Positions 36,380-50,415 of a DNA stretch of 64,000 nucleotides are shown in pieces (the stretch's first letter is position 1; the number at the start of each line of letters is the position of its first letter). The stretch lies in contig JANWXM010000010.1 of assembly GCA_025055285.1 (NCBI GenBank), positions 53,339 through 117,338 on the forward strand, in the 5' to 3' direction. The position numbers and the translations under genes are program-made. The notes under the pieces were generated by a model. That model had not been told where the DNA came from. It saw only the letters and a program-made list of their open reading frames with translations, and ran no database searches. Source of the DNA: Saprospiraceae bacterium (GTDB taxonomy: Bacteria; Bacteroidota; Bacteroidia; Chitinophagales; Saprospiraceae).

Positions 36380-37130
36380 AAAGTTTTCCTCGTCCTGAAC
36401 ATGCCTTGGCCAGTGTACTGCTAGCGTGCTCGACTTTTCTTGACGAGGTGTCGAGATATTCTTGCTCGGCTCTAGCGACAAAGAACTCCCTCCGATAAAC
36501 CTAAAGGCCGCAGGAAGTAGATAAAGAATTTTTTGGTCATAAACTGACCAAGCAAATACTCTCTGTTGAAACGGTTGTTTGACTGTTTCACACGGGAGCA
36601 GGCATACTAAGCGTCCCATAAAAACCCACGTAAACAAGTGGCGCAGGGCGAGATCACCTCTCCTCATTGAACTTTCTGACAAACAACACATCACAGAGAA
36701 AGGTCTAGAGCAACACAGCAAGCTTTCGAGAACAAGAGCTTTCACGGCACAGGTCAGATGCTACCGCTCCATGCCGCCTACACGAGACCTCAAAAATATT
36801 AATTGGGAAGCCAGCCTTGCGCTGTAGCCTGAGCTTTAAAGAAGCGACCCTTAGAGCTGCCCGTTGGACGTCTTAGCATCAGACGGTCAGCGCGCCGTTT
36901 GTACCCGGCGATGTTTTGTTGCTTGCGCTCGAAAGCGACAATTTCATTCAATAAACGCTCTTTGACAGCGCCTCGTTGAAAGGGCTTTTCTAAGGGTTGG
37001 TATTTAAGGTAAAGCAGCTGTTTCGTCCATGAGACGTGTAGTTTTTTATAAAAATATCTATTTTTCCGCCCGCTTTTGCTCGGACGCGATAATTGCGTGT
37101 TTTTTATCACAATTAAAAATATTTCTGTGT

Positions 37131-40100
37131 ATGAAACAACGTCTACTATGCTGTTTAATAGGGAGTTTGTTAGGATTTGGCCCATTATTAGGGCAATTGC
37201 CAAATGGAAGCACGGCGCCTAATTTTACCGTGGTGGACATCAACGGCAACTCCCACACATTGTATACCCTGCTCGATCAGGGCAAAACGGTGTACATAGA
37301 CTTCTTCGCTACGTGGTGTGGTCCTTGTTGGAATTACCATAATTCTCATGCGCTTCATCAAATTTGGGAACAATACGGCCCTCCAGGTACTAATGAGGCT
37401 TTCGTTCTCATGATCGAGGGCGATTGTAACACGAACACAGCATGTATCAACAATCCGCCAGCGTGCAATGCCAGCACTCAAGGGAACTGGGCAACTGGAA
37501 CGCCTTTTCCTATTGCCGACAATTGCAGCGTTCGAGCGCAATACCAAGTGACCTATTACCCTACTATTTATATGGTATGCCCGGCCGACCGAAAGATTTA
37601 CCTCGTAGGCCAACAACCAGCATCTGGGTTATGGGCAGCGCGCAGCGCGTATTGTCCACCTCTAGCAGTGAACGTAACCGTGACTAATGTGCAGCACGTC
37701 CGTTGCTATGGCACCAGCACTGGCTCGATTTCGATTACGGCTTCGGGCGGCAGCCCTCCGTATACTTACCAATGGTCGAACGGAGCGACTACGCAAAACC
37801 TCACTAATATTCCAGCAGGTGTATATACGTGCACAGTCACGAATGCTCAAGGGTGGACAGGTACTACTGGCCCCATTACTGTAGAAGATCCTCCAGCACC
37901 GCTTGATTTACAGATTGTTCAAGTAACACCAGTAGGTTGCCAAGGAGTCTTAGGCAGCATTGAGGTTGCCTCTTCTGGCGGCTGGAGTAATCACGTTTAC
38001 GCTTGGAGTAACGGTAAGACGGGAACAAAGGTAGAGGGACTAACGGCGGGAACATATACCTGCACGGTTACCGATCAGCGCGGTTGCACAAAGACGGTTA
38101 CTCAGGTCATGCCTCCACCTACCAATCCAACAGTCTCTATAGCACCACCTGGAGTCATCACCTGTGCTGTGCCCAGGATTCAGCTACAAGGTTCAGCGTC
38201 AGGTGGTTATAGTAATTCGTATTCGTATCAATGGACGGCTTCAGGAGGAGGTAACATTGTTTCGGGGGCGAATACGCCTACGCCTGTAGTTAATGCGCCA
38301 GGCGTTTACATTCTTCAGGTGACGGAGGAAGTGACTAAATGCCGAGGATTAGCTACAACAATTGTCACTGCAAATACTACTTTGCCTGACGCGAATGCAG
38401 GCCCTGACACCAACGTTACCTGTTTGGTTCCCAAGATAAAGCTGCAAGGAACAGCATCGACAGGCTCCAATTTCTTCTATGTGTGGAGCACCTACGGCGG
38501 CGGCCGCATCGTCTCGGGAGATAGTACCTTGACGCCGCTGATTGATTCAGGCGGCTACTACGTCCTCCGCGTTACAAACACGATTAACGGCTGCGTGCGA
38601 CGCGATACTGTATACGTTGCTCCAAAGAATTTGCCTCCTAAAGTAACTATTTCCCACGGCCCAATTAATTGCACGGCACCAACAGTAACTTTAAATACGA
38701 CCACAAGTGCTTCTAAACCTTCGTTTTCTTGGACGGGGCCCAACGATTTTACTTCTACCGAGCAAAGTCCGACGGTGTCTGTTGTGGGAGTGTATGCCCT
38801 TGCTGTACTAGACTCTGCTACAGGCTGCTTAAGGCGAGACACTACAGTGGTTCGCATAGACACCATTCTGCCTAGTGTTGAGGCTACGGGAGGAAAATTC
38901 ACTTGTGTGGTAGACTCCATTGTTTTGAATGCGGAGACACAGTCTAGTCGCGTGGTTTATGCGTGGACAGGGCCTGAAGATTTTGAAAGCGATGCCTCCA
39001 ATCCTGTCGTCAGGGTGGCGGGCGCCTACGTCCTCATGGTCACCGATACAGTTAATGGATGCATATCCACGGATACTGCATGGGTACTTTACGATACTCT
39101 CCCTCCTGCTGCAAGTGCGACGGCTCCCAGCGCGCTTAATTGCAATACTTTTCAAGTCACGCTGGACGGAACAGCTTCAGCGCAGGGAACACATTTTAAC
39201 TATCTATGGACAACACCGGACGGGCACATTGTTTCGGGCGACACCACCTTACAGCCTGTGGTGGACGCGGCAGGCACATATGTCCTTCTCGTTACCGACA
39301 ATGCGCGAGGTTGTACGGCCACAGCTAGTATCCAAGTAATTCAGCGTCAGCCTGTTATTGCCGAAGCGGAACAGTATCAGGCAGTCTCTTGCTCTGGCGG
39401 TAACGATGGCAGTGCCGTGGTGCAGGCTAGCGGCGGCAGCGGTGAGTTCTCCTTCTTGTGGAGCACAGGTGAAGAAACTGCTCAAGCAACTAACCTCGCT
39501 GCCGGCACATACACTGTAATTGTCACCGATACGGAGGGCTGCAGTGCTGTTGCAAGCGTAACCGTTCATCAACCTCCTGCACTAAACCTGCAGGTTTCCG
39601 CTACGCCGCAATCAGCAGCTGACGTCAATGACGGTAGCGCTATTGTTCAGCCTTCCGGGGGTACAGGGAACTATACTTATCAGTGGAGCAACGGAGAAAC
39701 CACGCCGACCATTGCCAATCTTGCGCCAGGCATATATACAGTTGTGGTCACCGATGAAAATGGCTGTACAGCATCGCAATCCGTAGTAGTCAACGCTTTT
39801 GACTGTACCCTTGATGCTGTTGCTACGTACACAAATGTCACGTGTTTTGGTGCTCGCGATGGCACCGCTCGAATTCTTGTCAGCGGCGCAAATGAGCCCG
39901 TCCGTTACACGTGGAGCCATGGAGCAAATACTGCCGAAGTAAGTCAGCTCAGCCCAGGTACCTATACTGTTCAGGTGTTGGACAATGCCAACTGTGCTGA
40001 TGTGCTGCAAATTACGATTACTCAGCCTGAACGTCTGATCGCAAATGCCTCAGCCACAGGAGAAACTTTTGTGGGCGGAAAGGATGGCACGGCTGTCGCC

Positions 40101-41699
40101 AATCCTACAGGCGGTACGGGCTCCTATACTTTCCTCTGGAGCAATGGCGAGACGACAAAAAGCCTTAGTGGGCTGTCGCCTGGAGTATATACTGTTACTG
40201 TTACGGATGAAAATGGCTGTACAACAGTACAATCGGTTACTGTCAATCCGTACGGATGCACTTTGAGTGCTCTGCCTGTAGCCACTCATGTACGATGCTT
40301 TGGCCAAAAAGACGGCGTCATTTCCGTGCAGCTAGGAGGCGGCACACCTCCTTACACCTATGCGTGGAGCACGGGCGAGAGCTCGCCCTCTATCCAAAAC
40401 TTGGGCCCAGGCAGCTATGCGGTTTCTATAGTAGATGCAAAGGGCTGTGCGCTAGTCGTCGAAGCAGCCATCGAGGAGCCCGAGCCGCTGGCCATAGAGG
40501 CTGAGGTGGCCCATCCGCTGTGTGCACACGAACCTACAGGTGCAATTCGGACGACAGCGTCCGGCGGTGTGGGAGCTTATACCTACACTTGGAGTACAGG
40601 GCATCAGGGCAGCGAGATTGAGGGCATTCCCGCTGGCACTTATGTGCTAGAGGTGAGCGATGCCAATGGGTGCACGGCAACGGCTGCATACACCCTCTCT
40701 GTGGCTGATGCTGAACCACCCGTTATTGTGGTGCAAAACACCACACTGGAGTTGGGCGCTGATGGAGTAGTGGCTGTGTCTTTAAGTGAATTGAAAGCTG
40801 TGGTTAGCGATAATTGTGCTGTAGACCGCGTAACGATTGAGCCAACGGTCTTCGATTGTTCCAATCAGGGCCGACAGAAAGTAACTGTTATGGCTTTTGA
40901 CAACAACGGCAATATTACTGTTTTAGAGGAGTTTGTGGATGTCGTAGACCGCACGGCACCGGTTGTATCCTGCCCGGCCGATATGAGGGCTTGCTGGTAT
41001 GATAATACTGTCCAGTATGCGGCACCGGTTGCTCAGGATAATTGCCTATCTGCTGGTGGCGTTTGGAATCTGGAGGAGGGCCTGCCGAGTGGGTCAGCAT
41101 TTCCGGTAGGAAAAACTACACAAACTTACACCTACACCGATGCGGCGGGTAACACGGGTCGCTGTTCGTTCAGCGTAACTATCACGCCACCTATTGAAGT
41201 GCCTGCTCCTGTGGTCACTCACGACGTTGGCACCCAGTTTATAGGAGCCATTGACATCTCGCCAGTTGGAGGCACGCCACCCTATCATTTCCGATGGACG
41301 AATGCCCAAGGCGATGTCGTGGGCACGAACGAAGACCTAAGAAACATTTCAGCAGGTCGTTACAGCGTTGAGATTCGCGATGCCGATGGCTGCGCAGTAA
41401 CCGTGCGCGATATTTCGGTAGATGATCTGGTGCGCGTACGCGAACCAGAGTGGATGCAAGGTCTCGTGTTGCGGCCCAACCCGACGAGTGGTATTGCCGA
41501 ATTAGTGCTATTGCAGCCTGCCCCTGCTGATGCGGAAGTTGCTCTTGTTGACGCTACGGGCCGCCTGATTTATGCCGAGCGCCTGAGCCATCAGCGTGTT
41601 TGGCGCCTAGATGCCACTCACCTACCGGAGGGCGTGTATTGGCTTCGTCTGCGTTCATCGCAGGGCATAGGTATCCGAAAGGTCGTGGTAGCACGTTAA
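37131..41699 (+). CDS. Giant T9SS cargo: thioredoxin-like N-terminus + SprB/PKD-like repeats + HYR-like domain + T9SS sorting domain
   Basis: Signal peptide at MKQRLLCCLIGSLLGFGPLLG; FFATWCGPCWNYH (CxxC); many YTYQWSNG..TxxxxNLxxGxYTVTVTDxxGC units; HYR-like DNCAVDRV...VVDRTAPVVSCPADM; C-terminal LRPNPTSGIAEL...LPEGVYWLRL. ORF track start 37029 precedes the signal peptide. Confidence 0.85.
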   Translation: MKQRLLCCLIGSLLGFGPLLGQLPNGSTAPNFTVVDINGNSHTLYTLLDQGKTVYIDFFATWCGPCWNYHNSHALHQIWEQYGPPGTNEAFVLMIEGDCNTNTACINNPPACNASTQGNWATGTPFPIADNCSVRAQYQVTYYPTIYMVCPADRKIYLVGQQPASGLWAARSAYCPPLAVNVTVTNVQHVRCYGTSTGSISITASGGSPPYTYQWSNGATTQNLTNIPAGVYTCTVTNAQGWTGTTGPITVEDPPAPLDLQIVQVTPVGCQGVLGSIEVASSGGWSNHVYAWSNGKTGTKVEGLTAGTYTCTVTDQRGCTKTVTQVMPPPTNPTVSIAPPGVITCAVPRIQLQGSASGGYSNSYSYQWTASGGGNIVSGANTPTPVVNAPGVYILQVTEEVTKCRGLATTIVTANTTLPDANAGPDTNVTCLVPKIKLQGTASTGSNFFYVWSTYGGGRIVSGDSTLTPLIDSGGYYVLRVTNTINGCVRRDTVYVAPKNLPPKVTISHGPINCTAPTVTLNTTTSASKPSFSWTGPNDFTSTEQSPTVSVVGVYALAVLDSATGCLRRDTTVVRIDTILPSVEATGGKFTCVVDSIVLNAETQSSRVVYAWTGPEDFESDASNPVVRVAGAYVLMVTDTVNGCISTDTAWVLYDTLPPAASATAPSALNCNTFQVTLDGTASAQGTHFNYLWTTPDGHIVSGDTTLQPVVDAAGTYVLLVTDNARGCTATASIQVIQRQPVIAEAEQYQAVSCSGGNDGSAVVQASGGSGEFSFLWSTGEETAQATNLAAGTYTVIVTDTEGCSAVASVTVHQPPALNLQVSATPQSAADVNDGSAIVQPSGGTGNYTYQWSNGETTPTIANLAPGIYTVVVTDENGCTASQSVVVNAFDCTLDAVATYTNVTCFGARDGTARILVSGANEPVRYTWSHGANTAEVSQLSPGTYTVQVLDNANCADVLQITITQPERLIANASATGETFVGGKDGTAVANPTGGTGSYTFLWSNGETTKSLSGLSPGVYTVTVTDENGCTTVQSVTVNPYGCTLSALPVATHVRCFGQKDGVISVQLGGGTPPYTYAWSTGESSPSIQNLGPGSYAVSIVDAKGCALVVEAAIEEPEPLAIEAEVAHPLCAHEPTGAIRTTASGGVGAYTYTWSTGHQGSEIEGIPAGTYVLEVSDANGCTATAAYTLSVADAEPPVIVVQNTTLELGADGVVAVSLSELKAVVSDNCAVDRVTIEPTVFDCSNQGRQKVTVMAFDNNGNITVLEEFVDVVDRTAPVVSCPADMRACWYDNTVQYAAPVAQDNCLSAGGVWNLEEGLPSGSAFPVGKTTQTYTYTDAAGNTGRCSFSVTITPPIEVPAPVVTHDVGTQFIGAIDISPVGGTPPYHFRWTNAQGDVVGTNEDLRNISAGRYSVEIRDADGCAVTVRDISVDDLVRVREPEWMQGLVLRPNPTSGIAELVLLQPAPADAEVALVDATGRLIYAERLSHQRVWRLDATHLPEGVYWLRLRSSQGIGIRKVVVAR

Positions 41700-42086: not shown

Positions 42087-45000
42087 CTAGCGATTGTTCC
42101 CGCCACCTGAGCCTGAGGAAGTGCGCTGTTTTCGGATTTCTTCTTGAAGCCGCTGCAATTCAGCTTGAGCGCGTTGGATTTCGGCTTGTAGCGCTTGAAG
42201 TTGTTGCTGAGCGCGTTCGATTTCTTGTTGTTTTTGAACGAGCTCCTGTTGTTTCTGGCCGATTTTCTGTTGCTCTTCGCGAATTTTCTCGCCTACCTCA
42301 GCGCGAATGCGAGCGATTTCGGCTGCGCTCTCTTGGCGGGCAGTTTGCACAGCTTGGGCGGCCTCTTTTTGAGCAGTAGCGGCTTCTTCTGCAGCGCGTT
42401 TGCGGGCCTCCTCGACCTCTGCGGCGTACTGCCTGCGTTTGTTTTCTGCTTCTTTGCGGGCGTTGGCAACCTCTTGAGCAGCTTGATTTCGGGCTTCTTC
42501 CATTTCGCGACGCGCGCGCTCTTGGGCCTCGCTCACCTCTCGGGCAAGGGCAGTTTTGCGCTCTTCGGCCTCGCGCCTAGCTTGAGTAATAGCCTCCAAG
42601 GCTTGCTGCTTAGCCATTGCTACTTCGCGAGCCGTTTGTTCTCTCGTTTTGGCTACTTCTGTTGCGGCTTCTTCTCTCGCCTCAGCAATGGCTTCGGCAC
42701 TTTCTTGACGGGCGCGAGCGGCATTTTCTCGAGCAGCTTTGATTTCTTCTGCAGCCTGTTGATTGGCGGCTGCAATTTCTTGCGCCGCACGCTCGCGAGC
42801 GGCAGCGAGTTCGGCAGCTAGGCGCTGGCGCTCTTCTGCCGCGCGCTCGCGAGCGAGGCGGATGCTATCGGCCTCTGCACCGCGAATAGCTGCAATGATT
42901 TGAGCACTCTGACGCCTGGCTTCAGCAATAGCATTGGCTGATTCTTCTTGCGCACGCACAGCAGCTTCTCGGGCTGCAGCAATCTCTTGAGCAGCACGTT
43001 CGCGAGCAGCAGCAATCTCAGCAGCAGCCCGCTCTCGAGCAGCTTGAACCTCTTGGGCTGTGGCCTGGCTCATCTCTTGCTGCTTGCGGCGCGCTTCAGC
43101 AATAGCTGCGGCGGCTTCTTGTTGAATTTGTTGAATTCTCTGCTCGGCAATCTGCTTTGAGGCATTGATCTCTTCGGCGTATTTGCGCTGCGCCTCTTGT
43201 GCGCTCAAGTTAGCACCCTGCACACGCGCTAGGGCCTCTTCCTGCGCCTTTGCAATTTCTTGAGCAGCGCGTTCGCGGGCGCGCTGAACTTCTTCTGCGC
43301 TCTCCTGCTTTATTCGGGCCTCTTTTTCCTTGATAGCGATCAAAACTTTGTTGGTCTCTTCTTGGATTTTGGCAATTTCTTCGGCAGCGCGTTGACGGGC
43401 CAACTGCACAGCAGCAATTATGGAGTCGCGCTGCTGCTGAGCGCGTCTTTGAGCTTCTGCTATTGCGCGATTGGCCTCCTCCTGAATCTGCTGGACACTT
43501 TGAGCCGCTCGCTGGCGATTCTCGGCTACCTCCTTGGCAATGTTTGCTTTCTCTAACTCCGCTTGTTCGCGATGTAGCTGAACTTCGCGGCGAATGCGCT
43601 CAATCTCGTCGGCCGCTCGTTTTTTAGCTTCAGCCACCTCAAGAGCAAGCGCTTCTTTCTGTTTAGCAGTGCTTTCGCGCAAGTCAGCGAGCTCAGAGGC
43701 GCTGTTTTGTTCCAAAAGAGCTTTCTCCTGAGCTGCTTTGCGGCGCGCTTCAGACACTTCGTTGGCAATGCGTTGTTTCTCTAATACGGCGTTTTCTCGC
43801 ACTCGGGCCACTTCATTAGCAGATTCTTCGCGGACTTTGAGGATCTCATCGGCTGCTGCGCGTTTAGCTTCCTGGAGGTCTAAAATCGTCTTTTCCTTTT
43901 CCTGTTGAATGCGTTGGCGGGCTTCTGCAATAACGCGAGTATTCTCCTCTCGGATACGGCGCAGCTCTTCCTCAGCGTTCGCACGAGCCGTCGTGATCTC
44001 ATCGTTGTATTGAAGTTTTGATTGTTCGAGGCGCTCTTTGATTCGAGCAATTTCAGCGGCGGCATTCTCGCGCGCTTTTTGGACTTCTTCGGCAGCAGCA
44101 AGTCGAGCCTTTTGGATTTCTTCAGCAGCTTTTCGGCGTTCTTCCTCTACGTTCAAAAGTAGGCGCGCCGTAATGGAATCGGCCCGCTGTCGGCTTTCTG
44201 CAATGGCTGCTTGCGCTTCTGCTCGGGCGCGTTCGATTTCCGCTAAGCTGTTTTTGCGCGCTTCGAGCACTTCGTTGGCATATTCTAATTTTTTCTGATT
44301 TGCCGCTTCGCGTGCAGCTGCTACCTCTTGCTGGAGCTGGAGCTTGATGGCTTCGGCGCGATCGCGCTCTGCCTTTATCTCTGCCCGCACGGCTTCCTTC
44401 GTTTTCTCTAAGTCGCGTCTTAAGCTAACCAATTCTTCGTCGCTAACAGGCGCATTCGACGAGGTCGGTCGAGTACCTATAGGGACATTCCCTACCGAAG
44501 ATTTATCAGCACTTTTGTCGGCACTACCTTGAGCCGTAGAGCTAACCTTTCGCTCGACCTCTGCGCCAGGAGTATTTTTTACGGCGTTTTCCTCTAGAGC
44601 GTTGTGAAAGCAAACGCATAAGTTACGAAATTCACTCTGCCGATTGGGATTTACAGTGAACTTGTATTTCTGGCGTTCTACGAAGTTGATGAAGTGGATG
44701 TCTGTGATGGTGGTACTGGCCAACCAGCGCACTGCTTCCAAATCTAGACGAAGGTTATTGCGATGGGTAGGGACGTTACCGCCGACAACTTCGCCCAGCG
44801 AAATGAACTTGTACACTCGTTCTTTTCCGGTGAAATCTACGAAGACAACTTGGTCATCTTGATTCAGTTCTGTACCACCAATTGAAGTGACCCGGGCATA
44901 AATGCCCTTCTCATCGGTAAAAAAAGCGATACTATAGTTGTAACTGCCTCGCACTATCACTGTCACATTGTCGGTTCGGACTATTTGAACACCCGAAACT

Positions 45001-45116
45001 TTTTTGTTCTCCTTGATAAGCATTGAGCAATCCTGAGCGGGTGCATAGGCTGAGAGAGCACCTAATGCAGCGATTAGGACGAGGCTGCGAGAGGGAGTAA
45101 AAGTAAAAAGTGCCAT
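42087..45116 (-). CDS. Secreted ~1009-aa coiled-coil protein with hendecad/heptad repeats
   Basis: Signal peptide (SLVLIAALGALSAYAPAQ), ~200-aa globular N-terminus, then >700 residues of A/E/R/Q-rich helix (ARERAAQEIAA-type units), C-terminal heptads (IREEQQK IGQKQQE LVQKQQE ...). Confidence 0.85.
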   Translation of the reverse strand: MALFTFTPSRSLVLIAALGALSAYAPAQDCSMLIKENKKVSGVQIVRTDNVTVIVRGSYNYSIAFFTDEKGIYARVTSIGGTELNQDDQVVFVDFTGKERVYKFISLGEVVGGNVPTHRNNLRLDLEAVRWLASTTITDIHFINFVERQKYKFTVNPNRQSEFRNLCVCFHNALEENAVKNTPGAEVERKVSSTAQGSADKSADKSSVGNVPIGTRPTSSNAPVSDEELVSLRRDLEKTKEAVRAEIKAERDRAEAIKLQLQQEVAAAREAANQKKLEYANEVLEARKNSLAEIERARAEAQAAIAESRQRADSITARLLLNVEEERRKAAEEIQKARLAAAEEVQKARENAAAEIARIKERLEQSKLQYNDEITTARANAEEELRRIREENTRVIAEARQRIQQEKEKTILDLQEAKRAAADEILKVREESANEVARVRENAVLEKQRIANEVSEARRKAAQEKALLEQNSASELADLRESTAKQKEALALEVAEAKKRAADEIERIRREVQLHREQAELEKANIAKEVAENRQRAAQSVQQIQEEANRAIAEAQRRAQQQRDSIIAAVQLARQRAAEEIAKIQEETNKVLIAIKEKEARIKQESAEEVQRARERAAQEIAKAQEEALARVQGANLSAQEAQRKYAEEINASKQIAEQRIQQIQQEAAAAIAEARRKQQEMSQATAQEVQAARERAAAEIAAARERAAQEIAAAREAAVRAQEESANAIAEARRQSAQIIAAIRGAEADSIRLARERAAEERQRLAAELAAARERAAQEIAAANQQAAEEIKAARENAARARQESAEAIAEAREEAATEVAKTREQTAREVAMAKQQALEAITQARREAEERKTALAREVSEAQERARREMEEARNQAAQEVANARKEAENKRRQYAAEVEEARKRAAEEAATAQKEAAQAVQTARQESAAEIARIRAEVGEKIREEQQKIGQKQQELVQKQQEIERAQQQLQALQAEIQRAQAELQRLQEEIRKQRTSSGSGGGNNR

Positions 45117-47944: not shown

Positions 47945-48066
47945 ATTTTGGTATTATTCTTGACTTATTGCGAAAGGTACTTCCGTTAAGCGACTTATTT
48001 TACTGAAAATCAGCTATTGTGTTCTATTGCCCTACTTTGGCCCAAAATCGAGAAATTTGCAGGATT

Positions 48067-50415
48067 ATGAAAGTAACGACGCATGTTTTGCTTTTTGTGC
48101 TTGCGTCGGGTTTTTCAGCGGCTCAAAAGCAGCAGCTCGCTTCATCACAACCTTTAGTTGTAGAATTTTCCCTACCGGGTGGCTTCTACACAGAGGGTGT
48201 GGAAGTTCGGCTTTCGGCGCCGCAGGGAGCTGTCATTTACTATACGACCGACGGTTCATATCCGTCAGTGAATGCCATGCGCTACAGCCGGCCTTTGCGC
48301 ATTTCTCGGACGACTGTCGTTCGCGCACTGGCTCGGTGCGGTCAGGTAACTGGTCGCGCCACAGGACAAACGTATTTTATCGGCGAGCCACCCACGAAGC
48401 TTCCCGTCTTATCGGTCGCTATCAATCCAGTTATCCTTTTTCACCCTGAGCGAGGAATTTTCCGGGAAGGCCCTTTTGCCGATACTACCTCAGAACATCG
48501 CCCTGGCGCCAACTTTTGGACGCGCCGAGAGTTTGCTTGTCACGTTGAGATTTATGAAAATGATGGAAGATGTGTGCACAACAGCGCCGCAGGTTTTCGC
48601 TTATTCGGCGGCTACAGCCGCATCTTTCCACAAAAAAGCATTGTGCTCGTAGCGCGCAGTCGCTATGGTAAGAAATTTTTCCGCCACCGCATCTTTGGCC
48701 CTGACCAGCCGAAGAAGTTCAAGTACTTGGTGTTGCGCAATGGTGGTAGCGATTTTGCCGGAGCCCATTTTCGCGATGAACTCATGAACCGCCTTACTGA
48801 CGGCTGGGGGTTAGAGAAGCAGGCTTTCCGGCCAGCCCTGCTCTACCTCAATGGACAATATTGGGGGCTTTATCACCTTCGAGAGAAAGTCAATGCGCGT
48901 TTTTTGGAAGACCACGCTGAGGTAGACCGCGATTCGCTCGACCTACTGGAACACCAGCGCCACGTGCGCCATGGCTCCAACGAGCACTATCTGCGCCTGT
49001 TAGAGTACATCCGCACTCACGACCTTGCCGTCCAAGCGCATTACGAATGGGTTTGCACGCAGATGGACGTAGAAAATTTTATGGATTATCAAATAGCCCA
49101 AATATATTGTTTTAATATTGACGCCGGAGGTAACACTCGCTATTGGCGGCCGCAACGCCCAGGTGGGCGCTGGCGCTGGATACTTTTTGATACCGATTGG
49201 GGCTTTGGCCTACACGATCCGAATGCCTGGCGAGCAGACGCCATCGCTTTCTTCACCGAGGCAAATGGGCCGCATTGGCCCAATCCACCCTGGAGCACGT
49301 TTCTGTTGCGCAACCTTTTGCGCAATCGCGAATTTCGCCACCGGTTTGTCAACCGCTTTTGCGATCGGCTCAACACCTCGCTGAGCGCTGACCATGCTCT
49401 TCGGCAAATCGAGTGGTTCGAACACATTTTAGGCCCAGAGATGCCGCGTCACTTGCGCCGGTGGCGTCGGTCAGAGGCCAATTGGCGCCGCCATGTAGAT
49501 ATTATCCGCCAGTTCGCTCAACGCCGTCCGGCAGTGTTGTTCGAGCACTTGGCCCAACACTTTCGTCCTGGTGCACCGGCCTACCTCCACCTGACAGTAG
49601 ACGAGGGTGGCTCAGTGGTCGTCAACAACACCATCACTATAGGTACTGGTGCTTTTGACGGCAGGTATTTCGAACACATTCCAATAAGCCTGCAGGCAGT
49701 GCCTGCTGTGGGTTATCGCTTCGCTGGTTGGGAAGGGATTGACCGCCAAGGGCGTGTTATTGAAGTTTACTTGCCATCTCACGACACGCTTCATGTGCGT
49801 GCTCGTTTTGTGGCCGACCCTCACCCACTGGACGGCGTAGTTTTCTTCAATGAAATAGCGGCTGCCGGCCAAAAAACAGGCGATTGGGTGGAGCTTTTCA
49901 ACGCTGGAGAAAAAACCATTCGGCTTAAAAACTGGGTGCTTCGAGACGCTCGCAACAGCTGGAATCTGCCTGATGTCAGTATTGCTCCTCGAGGCTATTT
50001 GGTCCTTTGTCAAGACACAGCAGCCTTCCGAAAGCAGTTCCCTCACGTGCGTTGTATTACAGGAGATTTTCGCTTCGGCCTCAATAAACAGGCGGAGCGT
50101 TTGCTCCTTTACACCGCTGATGGGCGTGCAGTGGACAGCGTCTCCTTTGCCATCGAAGCGCCGGAGGGAGAATTTACTCTTGACCTTCTGATGCCCTCAT
50201 TAGATAATGCCAAGTTTGAGCATTGGGGGATTCTTCCCGGGCCGGGCTCGCCTGGAGCAGCGAATCCACTCTTTCATGCCCACATTGTGACTCGTCAAAA
50301 AGAATTCGCTGTTCGAATTGGGTTAGCGGTTGGCGTATTGTTGCTCCTTGTCGGCGCGCTCTTGTTGCGCCGCATGCACGCCTATGCTGTTGGGAGTCCG
50401 AAAAGTTTATTTTGA
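48067..50415 (+). CDS. CotH kinase-like secreted protein with chitobiase/FN3-like N-terminus and lamin-tail-like domain
   Basis: VIYYTTDGSYPSVNAMRYSRPL; WGLYHLREKVNARFLEDH and FDTDWGFG (CotH); FFNEIAAAGQKTGDWVELFNAGEKTIRLKNWVLRD (LTD); C-terminal TM. Start at MKVTTHVLL. Confidence 0.85.
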   Translation: MKVTTHVLLFVLASGFSAAQKQQLASSQPLVVEFSLPGGFYTEGVEVRLSAPQGAVIYYTTDGSYPSVNAMRYSRPLRISRTTVVRALARCGQVTGRATGQTYFIGEPPTKLPVLSVAINPVILFHPERGIFREGPFADTTSEHRPGANFWTRREFACHVEIYENDGRCVHNSAAGFRLFGGYSRIFPQKSIVLVARSRYGKKFFRHRIFGPDQPKKFKYLVLRNGGSDFAGAHFRDELMNRLTDGWGLEKQAFRPALLYLNGQYWGLYHLREKVNARFLEDHAEVDRDSLDLLEHQRHVRHGSNEHYLRLLEYIRTHDLAVQAHYEWVCTQMDVENFMDYQIAQIYCFNIDAGGNTRYWRPQRPGGRWRWILFDTDWGFGLHDPNAWRADAIAFFTEANGPHWPNPPWSTFLLRNLLRNREFRHRFVNRFCDRLNTSLSADHALRQIEWFEHILGPEMPRHLRRWRRSEANWRRHVDIIRQFAQRRPAVLFEHLAQHFRPGAPAYLHLTVDEGGSVVVNNTITIGTGAFDGRYFEHIPISLQAVPAVGYRFAGWEGIDRQGRVIEVYLPSHDTLHVRARFVADPHPLDGVVFFNEIAAAGQKTGDWVELFNAGEKTIRLKNWVLRDARNSWNLPDVSIAPRGYLVLCQDTAAFRKQFPHVRCITGDFRFGLNKQAERLLLYTADGRAVDSVSFAIEAPEGEFTLDLLMPSLDNAKFEHWGILPGPGSPGAANPLFHAHIVTRQKEFAVRIGLAVGVLLLLVGALLLRRMHAYAVGSPKSLF

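Follow-up and report, generated by a model that had tools for sequence, protein, structure and literature searches.

Does the 40-residue helical super-repeat flagged in this Saprospiraceae locus reflect a real structural order, how far does it extend, and what might a secreted rod built from it do? The first-pass annotation of this 64,000-nucleotide window (the whole stretch of DNA analysed) placed the repeat at 42309..43094, in what it took to be a giant secreted coiled-coil protein. These coordinates map exactly to residues 675–936 of a minus-strand open reading frame of 1009 residues, a product that is long yet not giant. To our knowledge, hendecad rods have been little explored, and the very regular rods of mixed 7- and 11-residue blocks that we know of come mainly from Streptomyces Scy/FilP.

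Here, we describe an unannotated secreted family that carries this pattern, clean and long, across at least 59 genera, delimit the repeat and the sites at which its length changes, and propose a putative role for the rod in the cell envelope.

Gene and domain layout

The gene and its parts are as follows.

42087..45116, minus strand: whole gene, called as an open reading frame of 1009 aa; founding member of an unannotated family in the Saprospiraceae
45036..45116, minus strand: signal peptide, residues 1–27; hydrophobic stretch and small-residue end in nearly all orthologues
44577..45035, minus strand: N-terminal beta-domain (N-domain), residues 28–180; from alignments and an AF2 model of pLDDT 91, with two invariant cysteines
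44436..44576, minus strand: linker, residues 181–227; length freely variable between relatives
42309..44435, minus strand: coiled-coil rod, residues 228–936; from autocorrelation, Fourier analysis, the block HMM and an all-helical AF2 model
43614..44435, minus strand: frozen segment A, residues 228–501 (274 aa); length identical in 110/111 family proteins
43479..43613, minus strand: joint J1, residues 502–546; 17 length changes and a 7-7 defect near 511–524
42594..43478, minus strand: frozen segment B, residues 547–841 (295 aa); length identical in 105/111 family proteins
42387..42593, minus strand: joint J2, residues 842–910; 9 length changes and a dip in AF2 confidence at 849–880
42309..43094, minus strand: region first flagged, residues 675–936; block parse equal to the 18-11-11 segmentation
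42117..42308, minus strand: C-terminal heptads, residues 937–1000; lag 7 (z 5.0), lag 14 (z 4.5) and a heptad run in the block parse

The signal peptide, already proposed at first pass, is supported by the sequence; it was read by eye, with cleavage expected near the boundary between AQ and DC. Pfam and NCBIfam scans of the 1009-residue protein returned no family above cut-off, and a PDB sequence search gave no match. We recognised no membrane anchor, lipobox, autotransporter domain or type IX sorting tail in it; Por_Secre_tail was absent from both scans, and the chain ends in heptads. The window's own genome holds a single copy of the gene.

A 40-residue repeat fills nearly the whole rod

Identity autocorrelation of the rod (residues 230–936) peaked at lags of 40 (z 13.0) and 80 residues (z 12.7), followed by 91, 29, 51, 11, 18, 58 and 69, all sums of 7 and 11 and thus expected from a 7-11-11-11 unit. 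Within residues 675–936, the 11- and 40-residue peaks that had been set beforehand as the check on the segmentation were both present (z 8.0 and 7.7), ahead of 80, 51, 91, 29, 69 and 18. The super-repeat in this region therefore stands, but its confinement there does not: the 40-residue lag was as strong in residues 230–674 (z 8.9), and the repeat spans residues ~228–936. The hydrophobic Fourier peak of the rod lay at 3.63–3.64 residues and the further peaks were harmonics of 40 (40/18, 40/15, 40/14, 40/8, 40/7, 40/4 and 40/3). A harmonic-comb scan over fundamentals from 30 to 60 reached its maximum at exactly 40.0, with a secondary peak near 50.9.

The order of the blocks was read with a block HMM that allowed either size, 7 or 11 residues, and was trained only on 79 proteins whose rods share at most 50% identity with the window protein. 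Of the 18 inter-heptad gaps in the window rod, which was held out, 12 were exactly three hendecads, whereas the same blocks in random order gave a mean of 1.9 such gaps and a maximum of 7 (5000 permutations); the model scored the rod at 297, against -251 ± 14 for shuffled residues. A block parse of residues 675–936 reproduced the 18-11-11 segmentation, with 18 = 7+11, and the rod comprises ~17 units of 7+11+11+11 residues that take up nearly all of ~228–936. Irregular stretches are the first ~50 residues, the 7-7 defect near 511–524 and, close to the C-terminus, a pair of additional hendecads. Plain heptads make up the final ~60 residues, as first noted (lag 7, z 5.0).

Periodicity was retained in homologues: in a first set of 70 Saprospiraceae proteins, lag 40 was the best in 64 and lag 80 in the remaining six. 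An eye effect of biased A/E/R/Q/K composition has a negligible chance of explaining the pattern. The composition is indeed strongly biased, but composition-keeping shuffles never came near the observed values, the pattern was recovered by a model trained without close relatives, and its register is maintained in 111 proteins.

A rod family within the Saprospiraceae

Searching with the N-domain gave a match in 127 of 248 Saprospiraceae genomes, representing 59 of 100 genera. Of the 37 genomes sampled from the same genus, 34 carry an orthologue, counting the window's own. Outside the Saprospiraceae there was one match only, in a genome of a related family, among samples of 299 genomes of the order and 398 of the phylum; phage records held no match. 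Members share a signal peptide, a ~150-residue beta-domain, a variable linker, a ~700-residue rod of period 40 and C-terminal heptads, and 111 complete proteins showing signal peptide, N-domain, linker and rod pattern were aligned. Because about half of the Saprospiraceae genomes lack a match, the rod protein is not essential to the lineage. The 41 sampled genera without a match include near-complete genomes, and the pattern of presence and absence among genera could be set beside their cell shape or lifestyle. The family has a cultured carrier, Lewinella cohaerens DSM 23179 (L139), which makes it testable. A search of the literature for coiled-coil work on Saprospiraceae gave no result.

An outgroup homologue of 868 aa from a related family (G058, L064 5894..8500) keeps the head and has a different rod unit, with an 18-residue lag (18/5) and a hydrophobic period of 3.604 as against 40/11 in Saprospiraceae.

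Rod length changes in blocks at two joints

Twenty-nine complete proteins of the same genus align with zero gaps across residues 221–937; variation is seen in the signal peptide, linker and C-terminal tail. Across the family, the lengths of segments A and B are frozen (in 110 and 105 of 111 proteins) despite pairwise rod identities as low as 23% (in the first set of 70 proteins). We reconstructed length changes at the joints by parsimony on a tree of 107 of the 111 proteins, setting aside four with large or ambiguous segment changes. J1 underwent 17 changes (18 residues five times, 22 four times, 11 four times, 29 three times and 15 once) and J2 nine (11 residues five times, 29 three times and 22 once), so that 25 of the 26 pooled changes measure 11, 18, 22 or 29 residues. 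The linker, by contrast, underwent 72 changes of sizes 1–18, and its C169–E228 length is near-continuous among relatives; the C-terminal heptad tail differs in length as well.

Indel counts depend on the alignment, though the net lengths were taken between anchors of strong conservation. Net differences in rod length kept phase with a 40/11 helix (mean cosine 0.77, reached by none of 20,000 random draws), and linker length differences showed no coherence (mean cosine -0.07, p 0.59). Read from these alignments, the rod gains and loses length almost exclusively at J1 and J2 and in complete 7- and 11-residue blocks, as a precision-built structural component of the cell envelope would. The expectation that repeat number would vary in units of 40 was thus not borne out, the changes being blocks of 11, 18, 22 and 29 residues at two joints. 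The spectrum of indels documents with unusual directness the length changes that a coiled coil tolerates in nature.

Some of the family sequences derive from MAGs and may contain assembly errors. Three proteins (L218, L219 and L220) lack ~72–98 rod residues, mostly in segment B, and in three others segment B is longer by 3 or 7 residues; both may be real or an assembly effect. One protein of 1379 aa (L215) carries what looks like a partial second rod copy at a constant offset of 429 residues, or 39 hendecads, which may also be an assembly error. Growth by whole 40-mers was not seen among homologues, and this ~429-residue repeat is likewise no multiple of 40.

Rod geometry and chain orientation

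Hydrophobic periods fell between 3.633 and 3.637 residues (40/11, or 3.636) in 70 Saprospiraceae proteins, close to the 3.63 residues per turn of an undistorted alpha-helix (PMC9858780), so supercoiling should be minimal. The almost untwisted rod of hendecads and heptads predicted at first pass agrees with these values. From coiled-coil geometry, a helix of 715 residues, each adding 0.15 nm, would make a near-straight rod of ~107 nm if fully extended.

The hendecad seam has A at h1, A or S at h5 and V or I at h9 (94–95% hydrophobic), flanked by E at h8 and K or R at h2. With E and K/R on opposite flanks, a parallel in-register pair attracts and an antiparallel pair repels; parallel in-register pairing gave 31 attractive pairs and one repulsive. 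Hendecad dimers need small core residues (PMC9858780). Judged by the flanking charges and small core residues, the rods are probably parallel and in register, and probably form a dimer. A charge-stagger scan of the rod revealed no preferred lateral stagger and no significant long-range peak.

The AF2 model of the full-length protein has a helical rod but is of low confidence (mean pLDDT 68, pTM 0.29), and it was not used for topology. Within the rod, confidence was lowest at 401–417, 511–526 and 849–880, the latter two coinciding with J1 and J2, and the helix of the monomer was broken at 516–522. This break, and the similar frozen lengths of A (274) and B (295) on either side of a joint, would suit a hairpin in which the chain folds back at J1 and pairs A with B antiparallel in an SMC-like arm of ~45 nm. 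We consider such a fold unlikely: the flanking E and K charges would repel in antiparallel pairing, changes at J1 are phase-locked (11, 15, 18, 22, 29) unlike those of a free loop such as the linker, and L218–L220 have a shorter B with A unchanged. SMC arms are also coiled coils whose length is under periodic constraint (PMC5344682), but they consist of antiparallel heptads with ATPase heads, and their constraint comes from the superhelix (~91–99 residues) rather than from the 7/11 helix phase seen here.

In distant orthologue pairs, rod identity (0.42) matched that of the N-domain (0.39) and dropped to 0.25 when the rods were shifted by 40 residues. This drop on a one-unit shift indicates that each unit is individually distinct and that the repeat is old.

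The N-terminal head domain

The AF2 model of the N-domain (pLDDT 91) shows a beta-domain with a C-terminal helix, and two cysteines are invariant in the family alignment. Foldseek against the PDB returned nothing at E<=1e-3, only weak Ig-like or appendage matches, and profile searches of the PDB and Pfam with the N-domain alignment yielded nothing convincing. In a few Saprospiraceae genomes the domain also precedes TPR and CHAT domains (L211, L212, L213, L214 and L175), with up to four copies in L213. Because it is shared with TPR/CHAT proteins, it looks like a lineage-specific recognition module.

A putative extracytoplasmic scaffold

The family points to a putative structural element of the Saprospiraceae envelope. 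We give a probability of about one in two to the reading that this lineage-specific secreted protein forms an extracytoplasmic, intermediate-filament-like structural scaffold, a proposal in which function, location and oligomeric state are all inferred, as the first-pass annotation already said of any spacer, ruler or filament role. In such a scaffold, rods would be laid out along the envelope and joined to one another laterally or by their ends, the head would bind an envelope partner, and J1 and J2 would permit length change in whole helical blocks only, keeping the rod faces in phase.

The periplasm is a few tens of nanometres wide. A rod of ~107 nm exceeds this width, and we recognised neither an anchor nor a lipobox nor a type IX tail; both points suggest that the rods run along the envelope. 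The rod is also highly conserved, surface positions included, which favours interactions along it over a bare spacer; maximal divergence is what has been reported for spacer rods (PMC5082667). Several observations weigh against the scaffold: the rod charges gave no preferred lateral stagger, the neighbourhood offers no partner gene, the full-length AF2 model has low confidence, and about half of the Saprospiraceae genomes lack a match.

It is unlikely that the protein acts as a lone molecular spacer or ruler, the rod setting a fixed distance between N-domain and C-terminal end without polymerising. The strict length of segments A and B is what a ruler needs, and Omp-alpha of Thermotoga maritima, a 50-nm extracytoplasmic coiled-coil rod that spans the periplasm, sets a precedent (PMC5082667). 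Omp-alpha is an outer-membrane protein, however, whereas the Saprospiraceae rod is about twice as long and has no recognised anchor at either end. Its ~107 nm far exceeds the usual periplasm, its sequence is conserved as much as the globular domain, and relatives still differ by as much as ~70–100 residues in the total length of the rod.

A surface or extracellular fibre or adhesin, reaching the outside by an unrecognised route across the outer membrane, appears quite improbable. A long secreted rod with a small head would fit it, and the head domain recurs on other apparently secreted family proteins, but the rod protein has no type IX sorting tail, though its neighbour at 37029 carries one, and neither a lipobox nor an autotransporter domain was found.

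Of the systems already known, the Scy/FilP group comes closest to the proposed scaffold. Scy and FilP form dimeric rods of great length, composed mainly of hendecads and rich in alanine at the core (PMC9858780), and FilP builds striated filaments out of its parallel coiled-coil dimer (PMC6599971). The Saprospiraceae rod is likewise long, hendecad-based and alanine-rich at its core, a shared feature and not homology: the Pfam scan detected none with Scy/FilP, and the DivIVA family (an N-terminal domain with a GYD motif) was absent from the scan of the protein and 28 N-domains. The Streptomyces proteins are cytoplasmic, actinobacterial and DivIVA-like at the N-terminus, whereas the protein described here has a signal peptide and a beta-domain. 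Lacking a DivIVA-like N-terminus and being secreted, it at most works like Scy/FilP and is not a member. The repeats differ too: Scy reportedly has a repeat of 51 residues (Walshaw et al. 2010), one hendecad above 40, and our comb scan had its maximum at 40.0 with only the secondary peak near 50.9.

By role rather than by sequence, the proposed scaffold may be likened to CrvA of Vibrio cholerae, which is secreted and polymerises in the periplasm (PMC7695739); the same kind of role is proposed for the Saprospiraceae rod by inference. Peripheral stalks of rotary ATPases are hendecad coiled coils rich in A, E and R (PMC6131620), but they measure about 14–15 nm (A-/V-type), form part of a membrane enzyme, and have neither signal peptide nor 40-residue order.

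More tentatively, and with odds that we put well below even, the family may represent a new class of extracytoplasmic bacterial cytoskeleton, a "periskeleton" assembled from ~107-nm near-straight parallel rods that have a 40-residue, 11-turn unit and whose length is quantised at two joints. If this were true, its evolution would amount to a natural experiment on the ways in which a coiled coil can grow or shrink.

Genomic surroundings

The rod gene neighbourhood holds no telling partner gene; its neighbours are mostly housekeeping genes that differ by clade. At the gene itself, the Bacteroidetes promoter consensus had no match, and sigma-70 and terminator scans gave nothing above chance. The convergent neighbour (37029..41699, plus strand) encodes a SprB-repeat/HYR protein of 1556 aa, which has a thioredoxin-like stretch at the N-terminus and carries a type IX sorting tail. 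On the other side, 48019..50415 (plus strand) encodes a CotH-kinase protein with lamin-tail and chitobiase-C-like domains.
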